Assembly: GCA_017530365.1 (NCBI GenBank)
Contig: JAFXMK010000007.1
Span: forward strand, 1-64,000
Direction: 5' to 3'
Source: Bacteroidales bacterium
GTDB lineage: Bacteria; Bacteroidota; Bacteroidia; Bacteroidales; F082
Length of the DNA stretch: 64,000 nt
Shown: positions 56,978 to 62,727 of the stretch, in pieces
How positions within the stretch are numbered: the first letter of the stretch is position 1
How the letters are laid out: each line of letters starts with the position of its first letter
Position numbers and translations under genes: made by a program
Notes under the pieces: generated by a model
What the model was told of the DNA's origin: nothing
What the model saw: the letters and a program-made list of their open reading frames with translations, nothing else
Databases searched by the model: none

Positions 56978-57703
56978 ATGTCTAATGATAAAATAAAATA
57001 TTATCGTATTTTCAAATGGACACTGGTGCTGTCCATGTTGGTCTTCCTTTGGGGATGTGGCTTTTTCAACTCGTTCCACTCAACGAGAGTGAGAGGCGAT
57101 GAGTATTGTGAGGAAGAAGAACGCAAACGCATGGAGGAGGAAGAACGCCGTTATCATGCAGAGATGAATCGTTATTTCGATTCCATCAAGAAGATTGAAT
57201 ACGAACATTTCTACGATTCCTGCGAGTTGGTGCTTCAGGCGGAATGGGACTCTCTCATGAAAAGCATGATGGATACAGTTGGCGTGAACGGCTTTGTTCA
57301 GGCGCTTGCCGACAGTATCATTGACTATGCCAAGCAGTTCATGCACGTTCCATACGTTCATGGAGGCAATGGCCCAACTTGTTTCGATTGCTCCGGATTC
57401 ACCAAATATGTGTTCAAGAAGTTCGGCTATCAGCTGAAGCGGACGGTACCTGGACAGCTAAGCGATGGATGGAAGGTGATCACCAACCGTGACGAACTGC
57501 GTCGCGGAGATCTGGCGTTTTTCGGTGGTAGGGCTGTCCCGACAAGGATGGGCCATGTTGCTATCATTGTTGACAATGACACGGAAAACCATCGTTTTAC
57601 TTTCATTCATGCGACTTTAAACGAGGGAATCACCATCTCGGCATCCGACGAGAAGTATTATAAAATACGTTACATGACCGCATGTAGAATCCTTCCAGAT
57701 TAA
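56978..57703 (+). CDS. NlpC/P60-family cell-wall peptidase lipoprotein
   Basis: 241 residues. An N-terminal hydrophobic segment ends in FLWGC with lipid-accepting Cys27. A strongly charged Glu/Arg-rich helix at about 44-65 is probably a coiled coil. The NlpC/P60 domain covers about 105-241. Its catalytic residues are Cys138 (FDCSGF), His193 (MGHVAI) and His211 (FIHATL), with DLAFFGG between. It should cleave peptidoglycan stem peptides in the periplasm. First gene of an operon with spacings of 11 bases or less. What links it to the downstream reductases is not clear. Confidence 0.88.
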   Translation: MSNDKIKYYRIFKWTLVLSMLVFLWGCGFFNSFHSTRVRGDEYCEEEERKRMEEEERRYHAEMNRYFDSIKKIEYEHFYDSCELVLQAEWDSLMKSMMDTVGVNGFVQALADSIIDYAKQFMHVPYVHGGNGPTCFDCSGFTKYVFKKFGYQLKRTVPGQLSDGWKVITNRDELRRGDLAFFGGRAVPTRMGHVAIIVDNDTENHRFTFIHATLNEGITISASDEKYYKIRYMTACRILPD

Positions 57704-57707
57704 TCTT

Positions 57708-59030
57708 ATGAGATCTCTTTATCTGTTGCTGGCTTTTGTTTTGATTGTTTTCCCTGCTAGATTTCAGGCACAAGAGGCTGCAAAACCAGCTGCTTCCAAA
57801 CAACCCAAAGCAATTCATCCCCAAGTTGGAAACTCAGTCAGTTCCTACGATGGTCAGTTCTCCATCACTTTGTTGACGAAAAAGCAGTACTATTCGCGAT
57901 CAGACACCACGACCATGGATCCTGATGTGCGCTCCCCCAAATCTGTCCATATCCATCCTTCCGGGGAGAAGTACTATGTGAATTCGTTGGAAGGCATGAG
58001 GACGGTGGTGTATGAATCGGCTACCAACACAAAGAAGAAAGTCATCAGCCATTCTTTTAACAAAGCAGACTCCTTGCTTTGGAGCAAGCCTTCGGGGCTG
58101 TACCCGTTCACGCATTACAAGAAGAGTCTCAACACTTTCTCTGGAAAGCCCGTGGAGAGTGCTTTTTCGCATGATGGGCGCTATCTTTGGGTGCCATACT
58201 ATCGTCGCAGCTATGACATCAACGCTCAGGATCCTTCGGCGGTGGCGGTCATTGACACCGAGACGGATTCTATCGTCAAACTGATGGAGACAGGACCGCT
58301 GCCCAAGATGATTGCCGTTTCTCATAACAACAATTATGTTGCCATCACGCATTGGGGCGACAATACTGTTGGCATTATCGACATCTCCAGCGATTCACCT
58401 GCAGATTGGCACCATGTGGCCTGTGTGACGGTAAAGTATAAGCTGACGCTGAACTTCAGCATGACCACTCCCGTCAACCGTGATGTCAACAGCGGCATGT
58501 GTTTGCGAGGCACGGCCTTCACCCCCGACGATCGCTACTTGCTGGTAGGCGCCATGGGCGGTAGTGGCGGCATCAACGTGATTGACATGGAGGATTTTAC
58601 CTATAAAGGGACGGTCTCAGGCATGATGAGCAACTTGAGGCATTTGGTCATCCGTAACCAATACATCTATTTGAGTATCAATAAAAATGGATATATACAA
58701 CGGGCTCCGTTGGAAGCCTTCTTGGATACGGTGGCGAACATGAAAAACGGCAAAGCCCGTTTTGACAATTGGACCAACTGCAAGGTGGGATCAGGAGCCA
58801 GAACGATAGAGGTCACGTCCGACGGACGCTATGTCATCGCGGCATGCAACTCCAGCAACTGCCTGACTGTCGTAGATGCCGAAACCATGAAGCCTGTCGC
58901 TACCATTCCCGCCGATTCCTATCCAGTCGGGTTGGACATTTCCAAAGACTGTCGGTTTGTTTACCTCACGTCCCAAGCTAGAGAGGGCATGGGAGGTAAC
59001 TGTGTGGATATCTTCAAATTGAAATACTAA
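57708..59030 (+). CDS. YncE-like beta-propeller protein, exported
   Basis: 440 residues. The signal peptide ends near ARFQAQ. Repeating propeller blades include SVHIHPSGEKYYVNSLEGMR, AVAVIDTETDSIVKLMETG, MIAVSHNNNYVAITHWGDN, FTPDDRYLLVGAMGGSGG and VGLDISKDCRFVYLTSQ. Such seven-bladed propellers bind ligands or proteins in the periplasm or at the surface; they seldom show catalysis. It starts 4 bases after the peptidase gene. No catalytic motif is visible and the ligand is unknown. Confidence 0.78.
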   Translation: MRSLYLLLAFVLIVFPARFQAQEAAKPAASKQPKAIHPQVGNSVSSYDGQFSITLLTKKQYYSRSDTTTMDPDVRSPKSVHIHPSGEKYYVNSLEGMRTVVYESATNTKKKVISHSFNKADSLLWSKPSGLYPFTHYKKSLNTFSGKPVESAFSHDGRYLWVPYYRRSYDINAQDPSAVAVIDTETDSIVKLMETGPLPKMIAVSHNNNYVAITHWGDNTVGIIDISSDSPADWHHVACVTVKYKLTLNFSMTTPVNRDVNSGMCLRGTAFTPDDRYLLVGAMGGSGGINVIDMEDFTYKGTVSGMMSNLRHLVIRNQYIYLSINKNGYIQRAPLEAFLDTVANMKNGKARFDNWTNCKVGSGARTIEVTSDGRYVIAACNSSNCLTVVDAETMKPVATIPADSYPVGLDISKDCRFVYLTSQAREGMGGNCVDIFKLKY

Positions 59031-59041
59031 ACCTATAAGCC

Positions 59042-59905
59042 ATGTTGAAATACTATTCTTACTATTCCGTCGGAGGATACAAGGAGTTCTTTCTCGGAGA
59101 TCTTGAGAACAATGCTGAATACACCTATTTTTTCCCGTTGCTTTCCATCCTCGAAGAGGAAGCCAAAAGCACGGAATCCGTGACTGAGCGTGTCGAGAAA
59201 CTCAAGGCGCTTCCAAGGATTGAGCAGCTGTCTGAAAACAACACTTTCGGTCTTTCCAAACTGGCTCAAACGCTGTTCACTGAAGATGGCTACAAATTGA
59301 TCTACCGTCATCTGGAAGGTGAAATCAGTGCATTGGCGATTCGAGATCTCAGCAACAACGCTACGGATGACATGGGCAAGCCTATTCCGTTTTTGTTTGT
59401 CATCACCGGCGAAGGGAAAAAGGATGTACAGAACCTGGACCTTTTGGCAGCTTACATGGCTAACAACCTCACGCTGGCTCAATCGAAGATTGCTGGATTC
59501 ATTGGCATGAACAACGAACTCAACGGCTTGGAGTTCAGCCTCTCGCAATGCAATGCCTGGGTAAACGGGATATTGGAAGAACAGCAGACCAAGAATGTCA
59601 TCACTACAGAAGGAATGATAGCGATGCGTGGCGCGGATAATGATGTGTCATTTTTGGTCTTTCCTGACGATTGGACGGAAAAGGAAGCGGTGGCTGAACA
59701 GGAATTGGTTGGAAAGAAGGTGAATGGTGTTGCTTTGAAGAATCTCGTCAGCAAGGACGATCCCAAGAAGATGCTGGAACAAATGGAACTGATGGCAAAC
59801 AAGATTACCGCAGGCAGGACGAAGTTGGGCAGATGGAAGATATTTGTGATCGTCGCTTCCGTGATCTCGTTGGTGTTGGGTATCCTTTTGGGAAGGCTTT
59901 TCTGA
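59042..59905 (+). CDS. Unrecognised tail-anchored protein
   Basis: 287 residues. There is no signal peptide. A single hydrophobic helix lies at the very C-terminus (about 267-285, in WKIFVIVASVISLVLGILLG), preceded by basic residues, so the bulk of the protein should face the cytoplasm. The soluble part is acidic and mixed alpha/beta, with a mid-region reading PFLFVITGEGKKDVQNLDL. I recognise no domain. It begins 11 bases after the YncE-like gene and ends one base before the 5-alpha-reductase-family gene, so it is embedded in the operon. It could scaffold or regulate its neighbours at the membrane, but that is inference. Confidence 0.7.
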   Translation: MLKYYSYYSVGGYKEFFLGDLENNAEYTYFFPLLSILEEEAKSTESVTERVEKLKALPRIEQLSENNTFGLSKLAQTLFTEDGYKLIYRHLEGEISALAIRDLSNNATDDMGKPIPFLFVITGEGKKDVQNLDLLAAYMANNLTLAQSKIAGFIGMNNELNGLEFSLSQCNAWVNGILEEQQTKNVITTEGMIAMRGADNDVSFLVFPDDWTEKEAVAEQELVGKKVNGVALKNLVSKDDPKKMLEQMELMANKITAGRTKLGRWKIFVIVASVISLVLGILLGRLF

Positions 59906-59906
59906 T

Positions 59907-60674
59907 ATGACATTGCATCAATTCAACATTTTCCTGATCGTCATGGCTGCCATTGCCCTCGTGGTATATGTCAGCCTGTTCTTTGTCGATGCGGGATACG
60001 GCAAATTCTATAGCAAGAAATGGGGCCCGGCGGTGAACAACAAGCTTGGCTGGGTGCTGATGGAAGCACCGGTCTTTATTGCTATGTTGGTGCTGTGGCT
60101 CTGTTCCGACCGACGTGACGACATGGTTCGGTTGGCGTTCTTGTTTTTGTTTGAACTGCATTATTTCCAACGGTCATTTGTATTTCCCTTCCGGCTTCGC
60201 GGTAAGAGCGTGATGCCTTTCTCCATCATCCTGATGGGAGTGGCCTTCAATGTGCTGAATGCCTTGATGCAGGGCGGTTGGATATTCTATCTTTCGCCTG
60301 CCGATTATTACGGAAGGGATTGGTTGATGAGCCCTAAATTCATTGCCGGGTTCTTGATCTTCATCATTGGGATGTATATCAACATCCAATCTGACGATAT
60401 CATCCGCAACCTGCGAAAGGACGGCGACTCGCGCCATTATCTTCCTAAAGGAGGAATGTTCCGATATGTCACTTCAGCCAATTATTTCGGGGAGGTAGTG
60501 GAGTGGATTGGCTTTGCCGTGTTGACTTGGTCATGGGCTGGTGCCGTGTTCGCTTGGTGGACTTTCGCCAATCTGGCTCCCCGTGCTCACAGGATCTACG
60601 ATGCCTATAAAGCGGAATTCGGCGATGAGCTGGATACCAAAAAAACGAAACGTATCATTCCCTTCATCTGGTAA
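59907..60674 (+). CDS. Steroid 5-alpha-reductase family membrane protein
   Basis: 255 residues with six or seven predicted membrane helices. The C-terminal half carries the hallmarks of the 3-oxo-5-alpha-steroid 4-dehydrogenase family: NIQSDDIIRNLRK, then GMFRYVTSANYFGEVVEWIGFA (NADPH-binding and substrate region), NLAPRAHRIYDAY and the terminal KRIIPFIW. LHYFQRSFVFPFRLRGKS in the middle also fits. The length is that of animal SRD5A1/2 (about 255). The family reduces the delta-4 double bond of 3-oxo steroids to the 5-alpha form. It is followed within 2 bases by a flavin reductase and an SDR gene. A 3-oxo-delta4 steroid or bile acid is the favoured substrate; sterol-like or prenyl lipids are the alternative. 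Confidence 0.85.
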   Translation: MTLHQFNIFLIVMAAIALVVYVSLFFVDAGYGKFYSKKWGPAVNNKLGWVLMEAPVFIAMLVLWLCSDRRDDMVRLAFLFLFELHYFQRSFVFPFRLRGKSVMPFSIILMGVAFNVLNALMQGGWIFYLSPADYYGRDWLMSPKFIAGFLIFIIGMYINIQSDDIIRNLRKDGDSRHYLPKGGMFRYVTSANYFGEVVEWIGFAVLTWSWAGAVFAWWTFANLAPRAHRIYDAYKAEFGDELDTKKTKRIIPFIW

Positions 60675-60676
60675 TT

Positions 60677-61909
60677 ATGATGGAATCAAAGATATTCACT
60701 CCTTGTCAGATCGGTCCTGTCACCTTGCGTAACAGGGTGATCCGTTCTGCGGCTTTCGAGAACATGGCTTACGGCAATAAGCCTTCGCAAGACCTGTACA
60801 ACTACCATGTGGCGGTTGCTCATGGTGGTGTGGGCATGACGACGGTGGCCTACGCTGCGGTAAGTCAGTCGGGTCTTTCATTCAACGGACAGCTTTGGAT
60901 GCGTGAAGAGATTGTGCCTGAGCTGAAAAAACTCACTGACGCCATCCATGCCGAGGGGGCAAAAGCCTCCATCCAATTGGGACATTGCGGCAATATGACG
61001 CATCGTGCCACTTGTGGTTGCATGCCCGTTGGCGCTTCGAGAGGCTTCAACCTGTATTCACCGACTTTGGTGCGAAAGCTGAAAAAGGATGAGATCCTTG
61101 GCTTGGTGAAGGATTTTGGACATGCCGTGGAGCTGGCTCGCCAAGCGGGTTTCGACTGCGTTGAGATTCATGCTGGACACGGCTATCTGATTAGCCAGTT
61201 CCTGTCACCATACACCAACCATCGCCACGACGAGTTCGGTGGTAGCTTGGAGAACAGGATGCGTTTTATGCGGCTTGTCATGGAAGAGGTGATGCGTGTG
61301 GCAGGGGATGACATGGGCGTGGTTGTAAAGGTGAACATGCATGACGGTTTCCGTCGTGGCATGCAGCAGGAAGAGTGCCTCAAGGTTGCACAGGAACTCG
61401 AACGTCTTGGCGTCCATGCCTTGGTGCTGACGGCAGGTTTTGTTAGTAAAGCCCCCATGGAGGTGATGCGTGGCGCCATGCCACTCAAGACCTTGCGTTA
61501 TTATATGGACGTAAAAAAGTTCTGGTGGCTCAAGGCTGCCTTGGCTTTCGTGGGACGGATCATGATTCCCACTCGCCCCTATAGCGAGGGCTATTTCCTT
61601 GATGAAGCCAAGGTGTTCAGAGCTAACTTGAAGCTGCCGTTGATTTATGTTGGCGGTTTGGTATCCAAAGAAAAAATGGAGGAAGTGCTGGATGCTGGCT
61701 TCATGGGCTTGCAGATGGCGCGCGCCTTGGTGCACGACACCGATTTCGTCAACAAGTTAAAGTCGGGCGAAGTGGAACGGAGCGGCTGCAAGCATTCCAA
61801 CTACTGCATCGGCCGCATGTACACGCTGGAGATGAAGTGTCATCATTGTGTGGAAAACTTGCCTGAACGGCTTCAAAAGGAGATCGACGAAGCGGAACGC
61901 ACCTTATGA
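60677..61909 (+). CDS. NADH:flavin oxidoreductase, Old Yellow Enzyme family (candidate steroid 5-beta-reductase)
   Basis: 410 residues forming one FMN TIM barrel: FTPCQIGPVTLRNRVIRSA, ASIQLGHCGNMTHR, and the family signature HAGHGYLISQFLSPYTNHR with DEFGGSLENRMRF. LIYVGGLVSKEKMEEVLDAG and GLQMARALVHD form the FMN phosphate site. The C-terminus holds four Cys (371, 377, 388, 391; CX5CX10CX2C), a pattern unlike the usual iron-sulfur motif of 2,4-dienoyl-CoA reductases. The C-terminal flavodoxin and pyridine-nucleotide domains of BaiCD/BaiH-type enzymes are absent. Enoate reduction is expected; a bile-acid or steroid delta-4 bond fits the neighbours. Two adjacent ATGs are possible starts (60677 chosen). 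Confidence 0.85.
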   Translation: MMESKIFTPCQIGPVTLRNRVIRSAAFENMAYGNKPSQDLYNYHVAVAHGGVGMTTVAYAAVSQSGLSFNGQLWMREEIVPELKKLTDAIHAEGAKASIQLGHCGNMTHRATCGCMPVGASRGFNLYSPTLVRKLKKDEILGLVKDFGHAVELARQAGFDCVEIHAGHGYLISQFLSPYTNHRHDEFGGSLENRMRFMRLVMEEVMRVAGDDMGVVVKVNMHDGFRRGMQQEECLKVAQELERLGVHALVLTAGFVSKAPMEVMRGAMPLKTLRYYMDVKKFWWLKAALAFVGRIMIPTRPYSEGYFLDEAKVFRANLKLPLIYVGGLVSKEKMEEVLDAGFMGLQMARALVHDTDFVNKLKSGEVERSGCKHSNYCIGRMYTLEMKCHHCVENLPERLQKEIDEAERTL

Positions 61910-62727
61910 ATCTCACCAAGCACATAGAACGGCTCCATCAACGCTGTGGACATGTTCCGCTGGCGCTTGTGACGGGCGGTAGCTCGGGCATGGGATTGAT
62001 CTATGCAAAGCGGTTGGCTGAGGCGGGTTGTGACCTGCTATTGGTCAGTAATCAGAAAGAAGAGCTGGAAAAGGTGGCTGACGACATGCAGAGACGGTAT
62101 GGAGTCAATGCGATTGCACACTATCAGGATTTGTCACTGGATACCGCTGCTGATGAACTGTTGGATTTTTGCAAGGAGCAGTCGCTTGAGGTGGATATCC
62201 TGATCAATAACGCTGGAATGTTTTTTTTCGAGGAACTGCATCCTGAAAACGAGGCTAAGGCATTGAAGATGCTGCAACTGCATGTCTATACTCCGACGCG
62301 TCTTTGCGTGCTCATAGGAGAAGATATGAAACAACGGGGCTATGGCTATATTCTGAACGTCTCTTCAATGGCGGCGAAACTGCCGTGTCCAGGTATCTCT
62401 GTCTATTCTGCCACCAAGGCTTATCTGAAAAGCTTCAGCAAGTCGATGTATTTTGAGATGCGTCCCTATGGTGTGGGTCTCACGGTGGTTTGTCCCGGCG
62501 CCATCGCTACGCCATTGTACAAGCTGAAGCCTTCGCTGCTGAAGGCAGGGGTTAAAATTGGCTTGATCGGCACTCCAGAGTGGCTGGTTCGGCGTGCTTT
62601 GAGGGGGCTTTTCAGGAAACGCCGTGTCGTCAAGCCCGGTGCCATGAACTATTATCTTCCTCCTTTGATTGCCATCTTGCCGAATTGGCTGGTGGCAAGG
62701 ATCTGGAAGAGAATCAATGCTGAATGA
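61906..62727 (+). CDS. Short-chain dehydrogenase/reductase (candidate hydroxysteroid dehydrogenase)
   Basis: 273 residues. The nucleotide-binding motif TGGSSGMG is at 23-30. NNAG follows near 100, the catalytic Ser153/154 lies in NVSSMAA, and the YSATK motif gives Tyr167 and Lys171. PGAIATPLY follows. A hydrophobic C-terminal stretch (YYLPPLIAILPNWLVARIW) suggests membrane association. Overall it resembles the 17-beta-HSD12/3-ketoacyl reductase branch of the SDR family. It overlaps the flavin reductase stop by 4 bases (ATGA). Interconversion of 3-oxo and 3-hydroxy steroid is the favoured activity from context; stereochemistry cannot be read from sequence. Its last 14 bases overlap the convergent TPR gene. 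Confidence 0.87.
   Translation: MNLTKHIERLHQRCGHVPLALVTGGSSGMGLIYAKRLAEAGCDLLLVSNQKEELEKVADDMQRRYGVNAIAHYQDLSLDTAADELLDFCKEQSLEVDILINNAGMFFFEELHPENEAKALKMLQLHVYTPTRLCVLIGEDMKQRGYGYILNVSSMAAKLPCPGISVYSATKAYLKSFSKSMYFEMRPYGVGLTVVCPGAIATPLYKLKPSLLKAGVKIGLIGTPEWLVRRALRGLFRKRRVVKPGAMNYYLPPLIAILPNWLVARIWKRINAE

Follow-up and report, generated by a model that had tools for sequence, protein, structure and literature searches.

A three-gene cassette for probable steroid A-ring conversion in a Bacteroidales genome and its relation to the Parabacteroides merdae cluster

Strains of Parabacteroides merdae, Odoribacter laneus, and Bacteroides dorei convert 3-oxo-delta4-lithocholic acid (3-oxo-delta4-LCA) to isoalloLCA, and twenty other Bacteroidota strains gave 3-oxo-alloLCA from the same substrate, as passages of a review recount (PMC10382948). 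In P. merdae, disruption of the 5-alpha-reductase (5AR) gene prevented formation of alloLCA derivatives, and this gene clusters with those for a predicted 3-beta-hydroxysteroid dehydrogenase (3-beta-HSDH) and a BaiCD-like flavin oxidoreductase hypothesized to be a 5-beta-reductase (PMC10382948). Because such a cluster has been described in P. merdae, the kind of system considered here is already known. The bile acid 5-alpha-reductases BaiP and BaiJ of Firmicutes, as far as the consulted part of another paper goes, differ from the membrane-associated 5-alpha-reductases of Bacteroidetes (PMC9645264). Here we describe a related trio of genes in a Bacteroidales bacterium (GenBank assembly GCA_017530365.1, contig JAFXMK010000007.1, positions 1 to 64,000 of the forward strand). 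This 64-kb stretch, called the window below, has a GC content of 48% and belongs to a genome of 2.67 Mb with a completeness of 88%. The trio encodes an SRD5A-type 5-alpha-reductase (AR), an Old Yellow Enzyme-type flavin reductase (OYE), and a short-chain dehydrogenase/reductase (SDR), designated SDR1. With a probability of roughly 0.6, we regard it as a Bacteroidales steroid A-ring cassette in which the three enzymes play the roles proposed below, SDR1 being complementary to the SDR of Parabacteroides clusters (SDR2) and the end products being other than isoallo compounds.

The genes lie consecutively on the forward strand at 59907-60674 (AR, 255 amino acids), 60677-61909 (OYE, 410 amino acids), and 61906-62727 (SDR1, 273 amino acids), with gaps of 2 and -4 bases, just as an earlier note on this DNA had claimed. 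The protein families that it named were also confirmed by Pfam scores far above the cutoffs: Steroid_dh, 143 bits (cutoff 22.6); Oxidored_FMN (PF00724), 199.9 bits; and adh_short, 141.2 bits. Among solved structures, the integral-membrane AR matched the bacterial PbSRD5A (PDB 7c83) at an E value of 6.6e-52, human SRD5A2 at 1.8e-37, and the enoyl-CoA reductase art-1 at 3.8e-8 (36.4 bits), and a profile search gave 225.7, 170.1, and 48.2 bits, respectively. An AlphaFold2 model based on 44 sequences (predicted local distance difference test score, pLDDT, 90.8) was matched by Foldseek to 7c83 with a template modeling (TM) score of 0.90 and to SRD5A2 (7bw1) with a TM score of 0.83, and these were the sole two matches at E <= 0.001; structure prediction thus bore out the suggested 5-alpha-reductase family. 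In the alignment, E53 and Y86 correspond to E57 and Y91 of human SRD5A2, which we take to be its active-site Glu and Tyr, and E53, Y86, N159, D163, R170, N192, and E196 are invariant in all 44 sequences. AR therefore combines the Steroid_dh domain and the SRD5A helical fold with conservation of the aligned Glu/Tyr pair and the cofactor-site residues. It shares the fold and the Glu/Tyr pair with PbSRD5A (37% identity) and human SRD5A2 (33%) and differs from both in its Bacteroidales operon partners. Although the same reaction is proposed for AR as for BaiP and BaiJ, AR is of the membrane type, from which the Firmicutes enzymes differ (PMC9645264).

The second gene product, a candidate 3-oxo-delta4-steroid 5-beta-reductase, has a flavin mononucleotide-binding barrel with paired His and Tyr residues. 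H165, H168, and Y170, which form the HxxH-x-Y site, were present in every one of 103 aligned proteins, a set that includes the window and some redundancy. The score against the NCBIfam BaiCD model was 193.9 bits, far below its cutoff of 825, and OYE is thus not a member of the BaiCD equivalog, though it may work like BaiCD. Its AlphaFold2 model (pLDDT 88.5) was matched by Foldseek to naphthoyl-CoA reductases, dienoyl-CoA reductases, and YqjM-like OYEs. While the barrel and the HxxH-x-Y site are common to OYE, BaiCD/BaiH, and dienoyl-CoA reductases, OYE lacks the second nucleotide-binding part (410 amino acids versus 642 positions in the BaiCD model) and differs in two further features. One is an insertion relative to YqjM, encoded at 61475-61591 of the forward strand (profile positions 267-302, window residues approximately 267-305), where the profile alignment stops at 266 and restarts at profile position 303 against adjacent YqjM residues (263/264), Y306 being the window residue at which it resumes. 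The model contains a long helix at residues 279-296 as assigned by DSSP, and the mean hydropathy of residues 279-299 is a modest 0.82; at a guess, the insertion is possibly a membrane-contact helix. The other feature is at the C-terminus. BaiCD/BaiH and dienoyl-CoA reductases bear a four-Cys motif, which in OYE is replaced by C371-x-H373-xx-Y-C377-x10-C388 (61787-61840, forward strand). C371 and C377 were found in 103 of the 103 aligned proteins, C388 in 102, and H373 in 101. This tail is modeled with low confidence (residues 377-384 below 50), and our guess is that it could possibly form a metal or Fe-S site.

The pairing of AR and OYE was examined in other Bacteroidales. In the named relatives (loci L039-L118, the best 80 of 585 confirmed AR candidates), OYE follows AR on the same strand in 75 of the 80, at a distance of at most 50 bases in 64 of these 75. 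This linkage is far beyond chance; the two genes form the core of a cassette that is conserved in Bacteroidales. In the window's genus, 21 of 36 genomes have both AR and OYE, two have OYE only, none has AR only, and 13 have neither; the 20 other AR-positive genus loci (L143-L162) all carry OYE and SDR1, with SDR2 in two. An order-wide search located 36 places besides the window at AR identities of at least 49%, and OYE stands beside AR in 24 of the 29 with a retrieved locus (1.5-kb flanks), a neighbor check that left out 28 further genomes with AR matches below 49%. For comparison with the published system, we used the genus containing the named P. massiliensis (identical AR), in which AR occurs in 20 of 38 genomes and 17 loci were fetched. 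Fifteen of the 17 show the order AR-OYE-SDR2, one has AR alone, one is cut by a contig end, and none contains SDR1; the same pattern is seen in L103 and L113, two named loci of Parabacteroides. As in the P. merdae cluster, the 5-alpha-reductase and OYE genes of the window are adjacent, in the same order, and on one strand, and the window proteins are 61% (AR) and 62% (OYE) identical to those of the Parabacteroides-genus cluster L198. By identity and order, they look like orthologues of the published pair. The earlier note had likened the whole trio to the one published for Bacteroidales; the likeness stands for AR and OYE and fails for the third gene, since SDR1 takes the place occupied by SDR2 in the 15 complete Parabacteroides-genus clusters.

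To compare the two dehydrogenases, a midpoint-rooted tree was built from 161 complete cassette SDR proteins, each labeled by its best tblastn match; incomplete frames and those shorter than 220 amino acids were left out, and some genomes contributed duplicate loci. The proteins fell into two separate clades, SDR1 (94 proteins, the window type, support 0.975) and SDR2 (67 proteins, support 0.999). The window protein matches the P. massiliensis SDR2 weakly (approximately 26% identity over 89 amino acids), and it is thus not an orthologue of the SDR of Parabacteroides clusters. The earlier suggestion, by analogy with the published trio, that the third gene encodes a 3-beta-HSDH is accordingly not supported. 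Its other statement on this protein, that the catalytic Ser, Tyr, and Lys are intact, proved correct, as Ser154, Tyr167, and Lys171 are present in all 95 SDR1-side proteins, window included. At the position of the Asn that completes the N-S-Y-K tetrad, however, the window protein has His126, as do 91 of the 95, whereas all 67 SDR2 proteins have Asn. The solved SDR 3m1a has the same His at this position, so that His126 is unusual but not unique. The best family models, both below cutoff, were a mycolate reductase for SDR1 and the PRK06197 group for SDR2. Direct searches of the window's genome with two SDR2 proteins found no SDR2 orthologue, the best matches having 27% and 30% identity.

From these comparisons, we propose the following scheme. 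Most likely, OYE would interconvert a 3-oxo-5-beta steroid and its 3-oxo-delta4 form; the latter would be the substrate of membrane-bound AR, which would use NADPH to convert it to the flat 5-alpha (allo) 3-oxo compound. SDR1, a candidate hydroxysteroid dehydrogenase judged by its sequence, would oxidize a hydroxyl or reduce a carbonyl group. Since SDR1 differs from the Parabacteroides-type SDR and often coexists with SDR2, its specificity is probably complementary to that of SDR2, acting for example on the 3-alpha position or at another carbon. The window's product may therefore differ from an isoallo-bile acid, and the end products of the host would be 3-oxo-5-alpha or 3-alpha-hydroxy-5-alpha compounds. 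If the cassette dehydrogenase does set the product, the label "isoalloLCA pathway" would be wrong for species that have SDR1 only. Two reviews report that flat (5-alpha) bile acids, isoalloLCA among them, promote regulatory T cells and inhibit Gram-positive pathogens (PMC10382948 and another review), and gut 5-alpha/5-beta-reduction of testosterone has been proposed in a review passage to alter hormone activity.

Several observations weigh against this scheme. OYE is missing beside AR in five of the 80 named loci (L061, L097, L104, L112, and L115), and both SDRs are absent from 13 of the 80, some of which lie at contig ends. Two genus genomes (G300 and G319) have OYE without an AR match, and in G003 AR is separated from both OYE and SDR1. 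Distant members occur on the SDR1 side of the tree (eight loci below 38% identity to the window protein), so that one function common to this side is not assured. The equation of the P. merdae 3-beta-HSDH with SDR2 follows from genus-wide position rather than from a published accession because P. merdae is not named among the searched genomes, and with the window's own genome at 88% completeness, SDR2 or the PCMD gene discussed below could be missing from the assembly. Finally, the bile salt hydrolase family (PF02275) has no match in this genome, and bile acid is therefore only one possible substrate.

The first alternative is that the window cassette yields the same product as that of P. merdae, SDR1 being a non-orthologous 3-beta-HSDH and the cassette making isoallo-bile acids. 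SDR1 does occupy the position that SDR2 has in Parabacteroides, and OYE-linked loci with SDR1 but without SDR2 are common (26 of the 80 named loci), as expected if one dehydrogenase suffices. Simple replacement, however, does not predict that both would occur together: by the panel search, SDR1 was found in 60 of the 80 loci, SDR2 in 40, and both in 33. Since they coexist so often, the two SDRs probably serve different functions, and this pattern is most simply explained by complementary specificities. The prevailing lack of the tetrad Asn in SDR1 also speaks against an equivalent enzyme, and we consider production of isoallo-bile acids from the window cassette unlikely.

The second alternative retains the A-ring chemistry and changes the substrates to steroids other than bile acids, such as progestins, androgens, corticoids, or plant and dietary sterol ketones, for which feed, saliva, and host cells would be foregut sources. 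The named relatives nearest by AR are uncultured Bacteroidales, and 27 of the 80 titles state a gut compartment (counted by eye), 13 of them foregut (abomasum, four; omasum, four; rumen, three; reticulum, two). Among the 12 closest (L039-L050), the four that state a compartment are all from the abomasum, which favors such substrates, as does the lack of a hydrolase match in the window's genome; among 24 genus genomes, PF02275 matched strongly over its full length once (G303) and partially, at the N-terminus, five times. This family was accordingly not counted in favor of a bile-acid role. On the other hand, free bile acids could still be used without this hydrolase, the remaining 14 of the 27 loci are from the hindgut or feces, and the Bacteroidota 5AR recognizes bile acids according to the review (PMC10382948). 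Moreover, 44 bile acids were detected in the contents of the four chambers of the yak stomach, as given in the part consulted (PMC11509861), and we therefore abandoned the argument that bacteria of the foregut have no contact with bile acids. On balance, substrates outside the bile acids seem quite improbable. A survey of bile-acid genes in rumen genomes distinguishes eight gene groups and, in the portion consulted, names no 5-alpha-reductase (PMC11193847), and our literature search for this cassette in the rumen found no description in the titles and abstract openings of the matches listed. From the distribution and the folds taken together, a role in lipids of the bacterium itself (enoyl reduction of polyprenols or fatty-acyl chains), unrelated to host steroids, is highly improbable: SRD5A relatives include polyprenol reductases and enoyl-CoA reductases, and AR does match art-1 weakly (36.4 bits), but it fits steroid 5-alpha-reductases much better, and an occurrence as patchy as 21 of 36 genomes in the genus speaks against a central function in lipid metabolism.

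A fourth gene, encoding a PCMD family protein (PF13201), joins the operons of many relatives, but not that of the window, and went unnoticed in the earlier note; a family search found no match in the window's own genome. In many relatives it follows SDR1, as at L150:9929-10873, with equivalents in L042, L045-L047, L049, L151-L157, and L159-L161, mostly overlapping the end of SDR1. In the 11 PCMD-bearing loci among the 20 of the genus, the PCMD and SDR1 matches overlap by 10-13 bases in 10, and in L157 SDR2 lies between them. PCMD was found in 24 of the 80 named loci (23 without L070, a weak match of 27%). In the genus, it is present in 14 of 21 AR-positive and none of 15 AR-negative genomes (Fisher's exact test, 5.6e-5), and in an order-wide sample of 295 genomes, it is present in 30 of 35 whose AR is close (49% identity or higher) and in 107 of the 260 others (4.4e-7, tallied by hand), neither value being corrected for phylogeny or genome incompleteness; PCMD is widespread also without AR. 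A binomial estimate for PCMD was set aside, as it assumed a density of about 3 PCMD genes per 3-Mb genome. The arrangements vary (downstream overlapping, upstream co-directional, and upstream divergent), which suggests that PCMD joined the cassettes repeatedly. The proteins start with signal-peptide-like stretches, judged by eye. The cassette PCMD belongs to the same family as BT2081 and weakly matches the structures 4het and 3hbz. BT2081 was assigned to carbohydrate metabolism, and the terms "steroid," "reductase," and "dehydrogenase" were absent from the main text of its structure paper by a term search (PMC2954218). Searching by family name and accession found no paper in the library used. 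We tentatively picture modular cassettes with a fixed AR/OYE core, exchangeable SDR1 and SDR2 that would set the product, and an exported PCMD that would bind or deliver the steroid. With SDR1 only, the window cassette would then be an unrecognized source of 5-alpha steroids other than isoallo compounds, perhaps in the stomachs of ruminants, and PCMD, so far classed with carbohydrate-related proteins, would be in part a steroid-handling family; we hold this broader picture to be doubtful, though possible. Should the PCMD link be true, it would provide a functional lead for a family that we met only through the BT2081 structure paper. Five genus genomes (L163-L167), all of which carry AR, have a second PCMD subtype at a site away from the cassette.

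Upstream of the trio, three genes on the same strand encode an NlpC/P60 peptidase-like protein (56978-57703), a beta-propeller-like protein (57708-59030), both named from the Pfam scan, and a 287-amino acid protein (59042-59905) that ends one base before AR. As these co-directional genes lie directly 5' of AR, they may share a transcript with the trio, which would then form its 3' part. Pfam and NCBIfam scans assigned no family to the 287-amino acid protein, which has a hydrophobic segment at its C-terminus and was found in only one of the 20 other AR-positive genus loci (L143, a 99% relative). The beta-propeller-like and NlpC/P60 neighbors recur in L143-L146 among the genus loci and in L039 among the named loci. 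Since none of the three is conserved beyond the closest relatives, they were rejected as parts of the cassette, and an antisense open reading frame cluster (cluster 5) among the shared neighbors was discarded as spurious. In one genus genome, a second OYE-SDR1-PCMD set (L168, G324:C10) is cut at a contig end; this genome already has the full cassette L153, and the second set could be an assembly or binning artifact. In the Parabacteroides-genus locus L198 (6506-10660), the cassette adjoins response-regulator-like and RND-efflux-like genes, named by eye.

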